Source: Halomonas sp.
GTDB lineage: Bacteria > Pseudomonadota > Gammaproteobacteria > Pseudomonadales > Halomonadaceae
Direction: 5' to 3'
Length of the DNA stretch: 64,000 nt
Assembly (NCBI RefSeq): GCF_020832045.1
Contig: NZ_JAFIFK010000068.1
Coordinates: 62,001-126,000, forward strand
Shown here: positions 16,784 to 20,507 of the stretch, one piece after another
Layout: each line of letters starts with the position of its first letter
Numbering within the stretch: the first letter of the stretch is position 1
The notes under the pieces: generated by a model
What the model was told of the DNA's origin: nothing
The model's input: the letters and a program-made list of their open reading frames with translations, nothing else
The model's database searches: none
Position numbers and translations under genes: made by a program

Positions 16784-17680
16784 TCAGGCCCTTTGAGCCT
16801 GTCCGGTCCAGACCGGGACATGGTCTTTCAAGGAGATGAGGCGCAGGGGAGCGACACAAGCTGTCTGATTGCGTCCGGCCTCCTTCGCCATGTAGAGACC
16901 TTCATCCGCTTGCTTTACCAGCGTGGACTGCTTGGCGTTGCGTACCGGTAGCATCGCGGAGACACCGATGCTGACCGTGACATGGCCGGCCACGGGGGAG
17001 TCGGGGAAGGGGATGGCTCGCTCCGTGAGCATGAAATGGATGCGTTCAGCCATGCGGTTGGCGCCTTCGAGGTCGGTATGGGGCATCAGCACCACCATTT
17101 CCTCGCCGCCATAGCGTGCAACAAGATCGCCAGGCCGGGCAGCAGCTGCCTTGAGGACACTGGCCACTTCACGTAGGCAGGTGTCGCCTTTTTGATGTCC
17201 ATAGTTGTCGTTGAAGCATTTGAAGCAGTCGATATCGATCATTAAAAGGCTGAGCGGTTGACGCTCACGCGCGGCGCGTTGCCATTCCAGTTTCAGTACA
17301 CGTTCGAACTCGCGGCGATTGGCAATCCCCAGCAGGCCGTCATGTGCGGCTTGTCGAGCGAGCTTGGCATTGGAGGCCTCGAGGCGCTCACGCTCATGCA
17401 GCAGTTGAAGTTCGCGAGCGCGATAGGTGCGTTGCATGGGCAGCAGAATCAGCGAGACTGTCAACATGATGCCGCCCGCGAACGCGACGAGGGCCGTGCC
17501 GGTATGCAAGCCTTCTGCACTTAGGGAGGCCAAGAAATGAACGATACTGGGAAAGAGACTGGTTTCGTCAGGTACCACACCATGCAGGGAAAGTACCGCG
17601 TCGCTAAGCAAGGCGACCAGCAGCACGAGGCCGGCCAGGCTTGGGGGATTGCTCAACGGAGACTGTGATTTTATGTTCAT
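16784..17680 (-). CDS. Membrane-bound diguanylate cyclase
   Basis: The 298-residue protein has two N-terminal membrane helices (LAGLVLLVALLSDAVLSL and TALVAFAGGIMLTVSLILL), a coiled-coil linker (RELQLLHERERLEASNAKL) and a GGDEF domain. The active-site loop reads GGEEM, with Met in the fifth position, and the inhibitory site RPGD stands the canonical five residues before it, so product inhibition by cyclic-di-GMP is expected. DIDCFKCFNDNYGHQKGD carries the metal-binding Asp. The start at MNIKSQ was chosen since upstream codons enter the leader. The gene lies about 90 bases downstream of the structured RNA and its terminator. Confidence 0.9.
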   Translation of the reverse strand: MNIKSQSPLSNPPSLAGLVLLVALLSDAVLSLHGVVPDETSLFPSIVHFLASLSAEGLHTGTALVAFAGGIMLTVSLILLPMQRTYRARELQLLHERERLEASNAKLARQAAHDGLLGIANRREFERVLKLEWQRAARERQPLSLLMIDIDCFKCFNDNYGHQKGDTCLREVASVLKAAAARPGDLVARYGGEEMVVLMPHTDLEGANRMAERIHFMLTERAIPFPDSPVAGHVTVSIGVSAMLPVRNAKQSTLVKQADEGLYMAKEAGRNQTACVAPLRLISLKDHVPVWTGQAQRA

Positions 17681-17770
17681 GGCCACTCGTCTCGCTCCTT
17701 GCTGGGATTGGATAACCCGTTCTTGACTTCCTGTGCTGCTGTCGGAGCTGCCAACTCCTCTGCGTTGTCG

Positions 17771-17795
17771 AAAAAAAAGGGCCGCAGAGCGGCCC
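17771..17795 (-). terminator. Strong rho-independent terminator in front of the cyclase gene
   Basis: GGGCCGC and GCGGCCC form a 7-bp GC stem with a 3-base loop; read leftward it is followed by eight T residues. No leftward protein gene ends here, so it must belong to an RNA that begins between 17800 and 18290. Confidence 0.88.
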
Positions 17796-17950
17796 AAGTA
17801 CGCAGGGAACTAAAGGATAGAGCTAACGCAATTGCGTGCCATCGGCCGATGGAAACCGTGAAACTCGGTGGACTCCTTTCCACATGATGCCGGTGCCTGG
17901 CAATCGAGTTTCTGGGTACGAGATCGGCCGTGCCGGCCATTCGTACCACT
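17771..17950 (-). ncRNA. Highly structured leader RNA or small RNA upstream of the diguanylate cyclase gene
   Basis: Read leftward, successive elements are: a hairpin of 7 bp plus 5 bp (17941-17947 with 17915-17921; 17934-17938 with 17926-17930); a three-way junction closed by GAAACTCG/CGAGTTTC (17905-17912 with 17860-17867) that holds two small hairpins, GTGGA/TCCAC with loop AAGGAG and TGCC/GGCA; two perfect palindromes (17839-17852 and 17826-17837); and a terminator. No known riboswitch consensus was recognised. Codon third positions in the overlapping short frames are far less GC-rich than in neighbouring genes, against coding. The unit either ends as a free small RNA or controls the cyclase gene by attenuation. 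The rest of 17681-18290 is AT-rich and shows nothing definite. Confidence 0.6.
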
Positions 17951-18290
17951 CTGTTCTGTATGCTGCGAAAATGGTGCCATAAATTTCCATTTTGTTAAAA
18001 AACATGAGGTTATTTTCTTTCCTGATTGAGGTTTGGGCAGCGACAACCGGGATCGGGGTATTGTGCGGTCGATTTATGTTGCGGTATGGCGACACAAAGC
18101 GCGATGTCTGAATAAAGCCAAATAAAACAATGGTTTGAGTGTATCCATTTGGAGACATCGTTTGCGACGCAATACTCTACCCGAAGCGATATGTCGCTTC
18201 TCGGCAGGGTGCTAGACCGCCGGCATCGTTCGGGCGAGACTGCTGGTAGTGTCGATTGCCTATGAATTCATCATGACGAGGAGAAACCCG

Positions 18291-18689
18291 ATGGCGAGCG
18301 TATTCACCCGAATCATCCACGGCGACCTACCCGCGGAATTCGTTTGGTCAGATGAGCGATGCGTGGCGATCATGACGTTGAACCCAATGAAGCCCGGTCA
18401 TCTGCTTGTCATCCCGCGCGAGGAGATCGATCACTGGGACGACATGCCGGCCGAGCTGAGCGCTCATCTCATGCAGGTGTCTCAGAGCCTGGCCAAGGCG
18501 CTGAAGCGGGCTTTTCCCTGCGAGCGGGTGGGAATGATGATCGTCGGTCTCGAGGTGCCTCATGTGCACCTGCACCTGGTACCGCTTGATTCAATGCAGG
18601 ACATACGTCTCGAAGGGCTGGCTCAAGCAGGCCCTGAGGAGTTGGCCGACAATGCCGATCGTATTCGTAGTGCCCTCACGAATCACTGA
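18291..18689 (+). CDS. HIT-family protein
   Basis: The 132-residue protein is a single histidine-triad domain: FTRIIHGDLPAEFVW, LNPMKPGHLLVIPR and the triad HVHLHLVPL, which binds and cleaves nucleoside phosphoramidates or dinucleoside polyphosphates in the family. The start at MASVF follows a GAGGAG ribosome site by 7 bases. A longer reading from 18249 lacks one. It is followed by the GAF-GGDEF gene after 24 bases, probably in one transcript. Confidence 0.92.
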   Translation: MASVFTRIIHGDLPAEFVWSDERCVAIMTLNPMKPGHLLVIPREEIDHWDDMPAELSAHLMQVSQSLAKALKRAFPCERVGMMIVGLEVPHVHLHLVPLDSMQDIRLEGLAQAGPEELADNADRIRSALTNH

Positions 18690-18713: not shown

Positions 18714-20507
18714 ATGTCACATGGTAATGACATGGTGTCCAGCTCGGCTTATCAGACGCTGCTGGCCAAGGTAGGGGAGCTCGAAAAGGCTGAGCGGGTG
18801 CAGCGAGCGCTATATGCCATCTCCGACCTGGCCGGTGCTCAACTGGAGATGAGCGAGACGCTCAGGCGTCTGCACGACATCATTTCCGGTTTGATGTACG
18901 CCAAGAATTTCTTCATCGCCCGCTACGATGATCTCACCCAGCATGTCCGTTTCCTCTATTTTTCGGATGTGGCAACCTCGTTTGCGGATGTGGCGGCGGC
19001 GGGGATGGATACGGCGATTCCGCTGGACGAGCTCGAATATAGCCTCACCTGGTACACGATTCGTCTGGGCAAACCGCTGCGCGGTTCACTCGATAGCATC
19101 GGAGCGGAGCTTCCCGGAGAGTTTCGGCCGCTTGGCGTGGCAGCCAAGGATTGGCTGGGTGTGCCCATGCTGGAAGGCAGTCAGGTGCATGGCATCGTCG
19201 TGGTGCAGCATTACGAAGAAGCCGGAGTATACGGGGCGGACGATCAGGCGCTCCTGAGCTTCGTTGCCTCGCATATTCTGACGACGCTGCAACGGCGCGA
19301 GAACCTGGAAAATCTGGAACAGGCGGTTGCATTGCGCACCAAGGAGTTGGCCGACGCCAATGCCAAGCTGCTTCAGGAAATTGCGCAGCGCAAGCGTAAC
19401 GAGTTGATTCAGCGTGCGCTTTACCATATCGCCGAGCAAGCGGGCGACACCGGTCGGGAAAAGGATTTCTATCGTACGATCCATTACCAACTGGGAAACC
19501 TGCTCTATGCCGATAACTTCTTCATCGCGCTCTTGGTCGACGAGGGCGAGGCGATCGACTTCGCCTACTATGCCAACGATTACGATCCGCCGAGTCTCAA
19601 ACGGCGTCTGCGCGACGGTTTGACCGAGTACGTCTTGCGTCAGGGTGCGGATGTGCTGCTCGACAAGAGCCAGATCGCTGCGCTCGAGGATGCTGGCAGC
19701 ATTACCATCAATGGGCGTCGTCCCCACTCCTGGTTGGGAGTGCCGCTACGCTGTGAGGGGCGGGTACTGGGGGTCATGGCCGTGCAAAGCTATCGCGACG
19801 ACACTCTCTATCAGCCCGAGGATTCGGAGCTGCTGCGGTTCGTGTCCAGTCAGATTGCCAGCAGCCTGGAGCGCAAGCGCGCCTTGGCGTCTCTACGTGT
19901 GGCCAAGGAGACGCTTGAGCACAGGGTGCGGGAACGCACCAGTGAGCTCGAAAAGGAGATCGCCACCCGCAAGGCCGTGGAGCAACAGCTCAAGCATGAG
20001 GTAATGCACGACCACCTGACGGGACTGCCCAATCGGGCCTACCTGCTGGAGCGACTCGAGCAACTCTCATCGCGGCGTAGCACCGGTGTCGACAAGCGGA
20101 ACTTTGCCATCATGTTTCTGGATGTCGATCGCTTCAAGGCAATCAATGACGAGCACGGCCACATCGTGGGAGACATGGTATTGAAGGAGATCGCCCAGCG
20201 TCTTTCATACAGCGTCAGGCCGCCCGGCCTTGCGGCGCGCCTGTCAGGAGATGAGTTCGCCATTCTGCTGGAGGGAATCGAGCGAGAAGAGGAAGCGGTC
20301 ACGGTCGCTTCTCGCTTCCTGCGAACCCTGGAACGTCCGATTTCACTCGCGGGAATCAGTCTCGAGGTCTCCGTGAGTATCGGCATTGCCAGCCATGGAG
20401 AGGGCGAGATGTCGCACTCGGATTTGCTGGGGCGAGCGGACAAGGCGATGTATCAAGCCAAGAGCGAAGGGCGCAGCCTATATCGCCTTTCCCCCTCTCG
20501 AAAGTGA
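18714..20507 (+). CDS. Soluble diguanylate cyclase with two GAF domains
   Basis: The 597-residue protein has no membrane segment. Two similar GAF domains (about residues 20-200 and 225-405; compare SGLMYAKNFFIARYDD with GNLLYADNFFIALLVD, and WLGVPMLEGSQVHGIVVVQ with WLGVPLRCEGRVLGVMAVQ) are joined by coiled coils and followed by a GGDEF domain. The active loop is SGDEF, which is still compatible with catalysis; the inhibitory site is RPPG instead of RxxD. The start at MSHGNDM has GGGGAAG at a good distance; an ATG seven codons upstream does not. The ligand of the GAF domains is unknown. Confidence 0.92.
   Translation: MSHGNDMVSSSAYQTLLAKVGELEKAERVQRALYAISDLAGAQLEMSETLRRLHDIISGLMYAKNFFIARYDDLTQHVRFLYFSDVATSFADVAAAGMDTAIPLDELEYSLTWYTIRLGKPLRGSLDSIGAELPGEFRPLGVAAKDWLGVPMLEGSQVHGIVVVQHYEEAGVYGADDQALLSFVASHILTTLQRRENLENLEQAVALRTKELADANAKLLQEIAQRKRNELIQRALYHIAEQAGDTGREKDFYRTIHYQLGNLLYADNFFIALLVDEGEAIDFAYYANDYDPPSLKRRLRDGLTEYVLRQGADVLLDKSQIAALEDAGSITINGRRPHSWLGVPLRCEGRVLGVMAVQSYRDDTLYQPEDSELLRFVSSQIASSLERKRALASLRVAKETLEHRVRERTSELEKEIATRKAVEQQLKHEVMHDHLTGLPNRAYLLERLEQLSSRRSTGVDKRNFAIMFLDVDRFKAINDEHGHIVGDMVLKEIAQRLSYSVRPPGLAARLSGDEFAILLEGIEREEEAVTVASRFLRTLERPISLAGISLEVSVSIGIASHGEGEMSHSDLLGRADKAMYQAKSEGRSLYRLSPSRK

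Follow-up and report, generated by a model that had tools for sequence, protein, structure and literature searches.

The question raised by this locus is what is made from a densely structured stretch of minus-strand DNA that lies between a HIT-domain gene and a diguanylate cyclase gene in the 64-kb window (the whole stretch of Halomonas DNA that was analyzed): the leader of the cyclase mRNA or a separate small RNA. An earlier reading made from the letters alone, here called the sequence-only reading, had described a hairpin, a three-way junction, palindromes and a terminator on this strand, about 90 bases ahead of the cyclase gene, and had taken them for an attenuating riboswitch, with a free small RNA as the alternative. 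The described elements are all present at 17771–17953, and the last T lies 91 bases from the start codon at 17680. As Table 1 shows, the features extend from the cyclase gene to two putative regulator-binding boxes. The two-part 5′ hairpin occupies 17947–17915 on the minus strand (coordinates read from the sequence). An 8-bp perfect stem (17912–17905 with 17867–17860) closes the junction around inner hairpins at 17902–17888 and 17883–17868, and palindromes lie at 17851–17840 and 17837–17826. The terminator is made of the hairpin GGGCCGC-TCT-GCGGCCC (17795–17779) and eight T (17778–17771); shuffled sequence averages 0.9 terminator sites in the same scan, so the hairpin by itself is not rare. 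Behind the HIT gene, positions 18726–20507 encode another GGDEF protein, which has GAF domains, and the RNA thus sits between two cyclase genes.

Table 1. Features of the small RNA locus and its neighbors, in window coordinates
Feature	Position	Strand	Basis or detail
Diguanylate cyclase (GGDEF)	16784..17680	−	next gene after the window RNA; start codon 17680
Type A small RNA	17771..17953	−	~183 nt, predicted sigma-54 start to last T; promoter geometry, terminator, relatives
Intrinsic terminator	17771..17795	−	7-bp GC stem and eight T
3′ module common to type B RNA, CCUUUAGUUCCCUGCGUACUU and terminator	17771..17816	−	BLAST, pattern scan
Three-way junction	17860..17912	−	closing stem paired in four closest sequences, one both-side change
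CsrA-type hairpin GUGGA-AAGGAG-UCCAC, ANGGAX hexaloop	17868..17883	−	high-affinity CsrA/RsmE form, sequence match
Predicted sigma-54 promoter TGGCACCATTTTCGCA (−26 to −11)	17964..17979	−	10/11 scored positions
Putative GlrR/QseF-type box TGTCGCCATACCGCAACA	18077..18094	−	1 mismatch to TGTC-N10-GACA
Putative GlrR/QseF-type box TGTCTCCAAATGGATACA	18140..18157	−	1 mismatch to TGTC-N10-GACA; fits TGT-N12-ACA
HIT-domain protein	18291..18689	+	divergent neighbor of the window RNA

The predicted fold of the 181-nt window RNA has an energy of −68.1 kcal/mol (z = −2.44), which is equaled by 2 of 200 shuffled sequences; the RNA folds beyond chance, but the excess is modest. Conservation of the stems was judged on the window RNA and its three closest relatives, which make up 4 of the 15 distinct sequences of the family called type A below. 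In these sequences pairing reaches 100% in the junction stem and the two inner hairpins; the eighth junction pair lies in an alignment gap in the three relatives. In the 5′ hairpin the outer part is 85.7% paired and the inner part 31.3%; the first palindrome is 62.5% paired, and the second is broken by an insertion, with two pairs kept and two at 62.5%. Both-side changes are seen in 4 pairs over the whole structure, of which the junction stem and the GGA hairpin contribute one each, and 10 of 500 shuffles reach this number. Of the stems described by the sequence-only reading, the junction stem and its inner hairpins are thus conserved among these four sequences, and the inner 5′ hairpin and the palindromes are not.

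The region does not look translated, and tblastn of the four overlapping ORFs against relatives gave no protein signal. The corresponding frame of the three nearest relatives shows 58–68% identity over 44–50 residues, against 90% for the DNA. In distant relatives the frame match is confined to the nucleotide-conserved 3′ part; a stop interrupts it in loci L007 and L043, and in L057 the frame shifts. A small protein encoded over the RNA was rejected since the protein is less conserved than the DNA and is interrupted in these distant relatives.

The 3′ end of the RNA recurs throughout the genus. By BLAST against 58 genomes, the last 46 nt are found in 36 of the 37 genomes of the genus, including the one that holds the window (G001 is the exception), with two sites each in eight genomes; matches in other families do not rise above chance. 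A pattern scan of species-representative genomes for the 3′ module returned 90 stretches, with an exact pattern that diverged copies would escape. Of the named stretches, 79/80 come from Halomonas, Billgrantia, Onishia, Salinicola, Cobetia or Franzmannia, all of which we take to belong to the Halomonadaceae. Two loci, L065 (an actinomycete) and L113, lack the terminator and were discarded as chance matches. The remaining loci are of two types. Type A, to which the window RNA belongs, has 18 loci (15 distinct sequences, 118–224 nt as cut), and the ten that are named come from nine Billgrantia species and Halomonas alkalisoli. Type B has 102 loci (76 distinct sequences) with a median length of 463 nt (280–510).

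Across type A, the 5′ half is restructured between clades, whereas the 46-nt 3′ end including the terminator is kept almost letter by letter. The type A alignment holds 11 of the 15 sequences, L006, L007, L013 and L043 being too divergent. L007 (genome G012) is the shortest type A RNA, at 118 nt as cut; promoter, 3′ module and cyclase are kept, and much of the 5′ domain is gone. The type B alignment holds 38 of the 47 sequences below 88% identity. Both-side changes occur in 22 of the 50 pairs in its chosen helices, a count reached by 0 of 500 shuffles and biased towards structure, as the pairs were picked from 65 predicted on the same alignment (25/65 with both-side changes).

The tie to the cyclase gene that the sequence-only reading had claimed is real: the same gene follows the RNA in 18/18 type A loci. 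In L006, L092, L013 and L043 the HIT gene, and RlpA where seen, lies on the other side from the cyclase. Type B is located between argA and a cassette of kinase, small lipoprotein and response regulator; argA and/or the kinase adjoins it in 102/102 loci, the kinase in 97, with the other 5 loci ending before the kinase. The regulator beside the type B copy of the window's own genome scores 805.4 bits with the GlrR equivalog model, whose cut-off is 763. For the cassette kinase the only hits are to general histidine-kinase models and fall short of their cut-offs, and the lipoprotein matches no protein family, so the names glrK and qseG rest on position.

RNAs of both types are preceded by a sigma-54 site. 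The consensus used for scoring has 11 positions, and both strands of the window together hold 5 sites of the quality of the predicted promoter in Table 1, itself included. The geometry of that site places the RNA start at about 17953. A sigma-70-type site was not found in 17600–18350; since just 0.5 would be expected in that range, this absence says little. Among the 3′-module loci, some of which are copies of one place, 112/122 have a site matching at least 10/11 positions no more than 520 nt upstream. In the remaining ten, seven are cut by the locus end, L063 has its site at 541 nt, and L065 and L113 are the chance pattern matches.

Upstream of the window promoter lie two putative boxes spaced 63 bp apart. 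The binding site of QseF (GlrR) has been reported as TGTCN10GACA,(PMC8745638) and in an alternative form as TGTN12ACA.(PMC6075780) We counted both forms over the 91 distinct sequences (15 type A, 76 type B) that include 230 nt or more of DNA ahead of the promoter. With up to one mismatch, TGTC-N10-GACA is present in the 300 nt upstream of the promoter in 12/15 type A and 65/76 type B sequences, against 3/15 and 2/72 at 400–700 nt upstream and 0/15 and 16/76 downstream; shuffling predicts 1.2 and 8.2. The TGT-N12-ACA form is seen in 10/15 and 37/76, against 0/15 and 0/72 further upstream and 0/15 and 2/76 downstream. The places of the boxes are fixed as well: with the promoter's first T as reference, they fall near −180 and −116 in type A, and the type B pairs are near −191/−126 or −180/−115. 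In L007, L013 and L043, boxes are found only when 2 mismatches are allowed. A refined box with one mismatch gives 31 matches in the window's own genome versus 38 or fewer for control sites; because one-mismatch sites do not exceed the control genome-wide, single weak boxes mean little away from their place. Exact matches to the refined box occur at three sites in this genome, each before type B or before an operon that begins with a ugd-like gene.

That operon supplies the third boxed sigma-54-like promoter of the genome (L203/L222, G000:C61:5000–15500). Its gene order is ugd-like nucleotide-sugar dehydrogenase, GT2 glycosyltransferase, PilZ/HlyD, polysaccharide lyase 14 and alginate lyase, and it is preceded by a pair of GlrR-type boxes, spaced 64 bp apart, and by a sigma-54-like site (9/11). 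The two boxes and the site recur at constant spacing in G008, G010 and G012, and one box is found in G005 and G009. In G013, G015 and G016, a sigma-54 site is present at the operon place, but no boxes are found there.

The high-affinity site of CsrA/RsmE is described as a stem-borne hexaloop, ANGGAX.(PMC4005645) Such hexaloops on a stem of at least 4 bp are found in 75/76 type B sequences, with 88 loops versus 3.15 expected, and at a stem of at least 3 bp two or three GGA hexaloop hairpins are found in 74/76. Tandem hairpins of the form CANGGANG and a third CANGGA loop are present in 38/38 aligned type B sequences. The genome of the window encodes a single csrA gene (G000:C70). The type B RNA at L021:3924–4386 has, outside its CsrA-type hairpins, a long near-invariant stretch, GCGATGTGTRACTT...AGGTTGCGATGAGACGG.

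As an attenuating riboswitch or a protein-binding leader of the cyclase mRNA, the window RNA would sense a ligand with its 5′ fold and gate read-through with its terminator. The order of structured RNA, terminator and cyclase, the presence of the cyclase in every type A locus, and the junction stems kept in the four closest sequences fit such a device. The aptamer of a riboswitch is normally its conserved part, however, and here a 5′ part that varies in length and fold across type A is joined to an invariant 3′ end that includes the terminator, which reverses the riboswitch pattern. Moreover, the same 3′ module ends a different RNA before the kinase gene, and every minimum-energy fold that was computed contains the terminator hairpin. 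The sequence-only reading had found no likeness to GEMM or other known riboswitch classes, and Rfam bears this out: no gathering threshold was reached in the window or in 19 loci, and no riboswitch appears even among the weak matches. We rejected the riboswitch on its conservation pattern and on Rfam, and consider it very improbable. The alternative of a free small RNA is the one supported, as the promoter type and the boxes point to a separately controlled sRNA, likely one under GlrR and sigma-54. In the Enterobacteriaceae, glmY adjoins a qseEGF-type cassette,(PMC8745638, PMC6075780) and a diverged GlmY/GlmZ pair would make type B the GlmY and type A the GlmZ, acting via RapZ on glmS. Type B indeed holds glmY's place, immediately ahead of the cassette of kinase, lipoprotein and GlrR, the sigma-54 promoter and QseF-type boxes follow the same logic, type A genomes carry two RNAs, and the window's own genome encodes both rapZ and glmS. 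The window RNA itself, unlike GlmY, lies between the HIT gene and the cyclase rather than beside glrK–qseG–glrR, and type B differs from GlmY in its length and its CsrA-type hairpins.

The GlmY and GlmZ covariance models, whose Rfam accessions we take to be RF00128 and RF00083, give no match up to E 10 around the window RNA and none up to E 5 in a set of seven type A and type B loci. Nor does glmS find support as a target of the core: in 20 same-genus glmS leaders the longest complement to the core of the shared 3′ stretch is no longer than with shuffles (mean longest run 8.0 vs 8.3), and the leader in the window's own genome has no unusual core complement either. The main glmS of this genome is split over contigs G000:C19 and C102, and a second GlmS-like gene lies on C29. 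The RapZ encoded here aligns with E. coli RapZ only up to an RHR-x-L stretch near the end, and GlmY/GlmZ together with the RNA-binding part of RapZ are said to be restricted to the Enterobacteriaceae.(PMC7073468) We consider a diverged GlmY/GlmZ pair improbable. A CsrA sponge formed by type A itself, with only promoter and terminator shared with type B, is a somewhat better but still unlikely explanation. In its favor, the ANGGAX hexaloop sits on a 5-bp stem in the window RNA, L002, L003 and L069, with one both-side change, and on a 4-bp stem in L006. These are 5/15 type A sequences at a stem of at least 4 bp; the hexaloop is absent from the other 10/15, and from 9/15 at a stem of at least 3 bp, and one site per RNA would make a weak sponge.

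We therefore return to the reading that we hold to be quite probable, in which the window RNA is a free trans-acting sRNA under GlrR and sigma-54, driven together with type B and the exopolysaccharide operon. The kinase and lipoprotein of the cassette would activate GlrR (QseF), which would bind two TGTC-N10-GACA-type boxes and switch on the promoter at 17979–17964, giving an RNA that starts near 17953 and ends at 17771. GlrR would also drive type B, beside its own cassette, and the PilZ exopolysaccharide operon, and so direct a programme for exopolysaccharide and c-di-GMP that works through RNA. The tandem hairpins of type B may titrate CsrA away from its mRNAs. Type A would act through its invariant 3′ stretch, most likely by pairing with an mRNA or by binding an RNA chaperone, and in the window's clade it may offer one CsrA-type hairpin in addition. 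The cyclase gene may receive read-through past the terminator, comparable to Proteus, where glmY is co-transcribed with qseEGF in P. mirabilis and read-through from the glmY promoter is reported to feed qseEGF;(PMC8745638) given the strong terminator here, this is a guess. The promoter, boxes, terminator, conservation, CsrA-type hairpins and synteny are read directly from the sequences, and transcription, the binding of GlrR and CsrA, read-through and a target are inferred from them.

The shared 3′ stretch, CUUYAGUUCCCUGCGUA, is C/U-rich, precedes the terminator and is unpaired or weakly paired in the predicted folds; it resembles a pairing seed or a chaperone site, and CUUUAGUUCCCUGCGUA is the part of type A considered for pairing with a partner RNA. 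A search of 34 genomes with the pattern CAGGGAACTNAAGG, a 13-base complement of the core, gave 27 places, 24 of which are by position the RNA genes themselves; the other three are in G000:C11, G015:C11 and G043:C137. Among 151 start regions (window plus eight loci of the same genome, a small part of it), the best core duplex energy is −20.0, versus an average best of −22.5 for shuffled cores, and no target emerged from these searches.

Among known RNAs, type B resembles CsrB and RsmX/Y/Z in its tandem hexaloop hairpins and third CANGGA loop, and differs from them in its predicted sigma-54/GlrR control and in having no Rfam match; RsmY and RsmZ are reported to be controlled by GacS/GacA.(PMC2375449) The window RNA, with one such hairpin, does not have the several of the CsrB/Rsm RNAs, and most type A RNAs have none. 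Weak Rfam matches to alpha-r8/suhB (RF00519), SorY (RF02651) and AniS (RF02274), with best E values of 0.02 to 0.2 each, lie mainly over the 3′ end, where these RNAs have a similar form, UCCCU...ACUU-GGGCCG terminator. Their best scores are 24.7, 28.3 and 26.5, versus gathering scores of 41, 111 and 50. The likeness of the 3′ modules of both RNA types to SorY and suhB/alpha-r8 could reflect convergence or a common chaperone module. Qrr, CrcZ and NrsZ are sRNAs whose sigma-54 promoters depend on an enhancer-binding protein; the present RNAs would share sigma-54 dependence with them, but have other regulator boxes and no Rfam match at threshold, and CrcZ-type A-rich repeats were not seen by eye.

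These comparisons suggest a wider picture, which we put forward tentatively and with somewhat less than even confidence. In the Halomonadaceae, the GlrK-QseG-GlrR envelope-stress cassette would have kept its promoter logic and sRNA slot, with the GlmY/RapZ output replaced by a ~460-nt sigma-54-driven CsrA sponge; Billgrantia and its relatives would carry a second sRNA, alike at the 3′ end, ahead of a diguanylate cyclase gene, alongside a PilZ exopolysaccharide operon with GlrR boxes. Salt-loving bacteria may thus have rewired a known signaling circuit so that it has new RNA outputs. If so, the regulator and its genomic slot would outlast the RNA in them, and envelope sensing would be joined to the Csr system and c-di-GMP, so that signals from the cell envelope would jointly control c-di-GMP, exopolysaccharide and the Csr regulon via two undescribed RNA families. 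Two conserved families without an Rfam match would become testable in halophiles, a group in which one Halomonas is described as a bioplastic producer.(PMC13101641) A literature search for Halomonas together with GlmY, QseF or GlrR found nothing, and in searches for Halomonas with sRNA and Hfq, CsrA, or RpoN and noncoding RNA, none of the matches listed concerns these RNAs by title. Csr sRNAs of a marine bacterium have been described in a paper whose available part does not mention Halomonas.(PMC11882849)

Finally, a GlrR search across the class (E up to 1e-200) returned, among 143 genomes, only the window's own and G178, which belongs to the same class and another family. Upstream of the ORF in the putative kinase position of G178, no sigma-54 site of at least 10/11 was seen. 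Its contig C10 (L163/L165) encodes a GlrR-like regulator that scores 668 bits, below the cut-off, and carries two boxes separated by 65 bp, one of them perfect and the other with one mismatch, then a sigma-54-like site (9/11) and an ORF that is EF-hand-like by eye.
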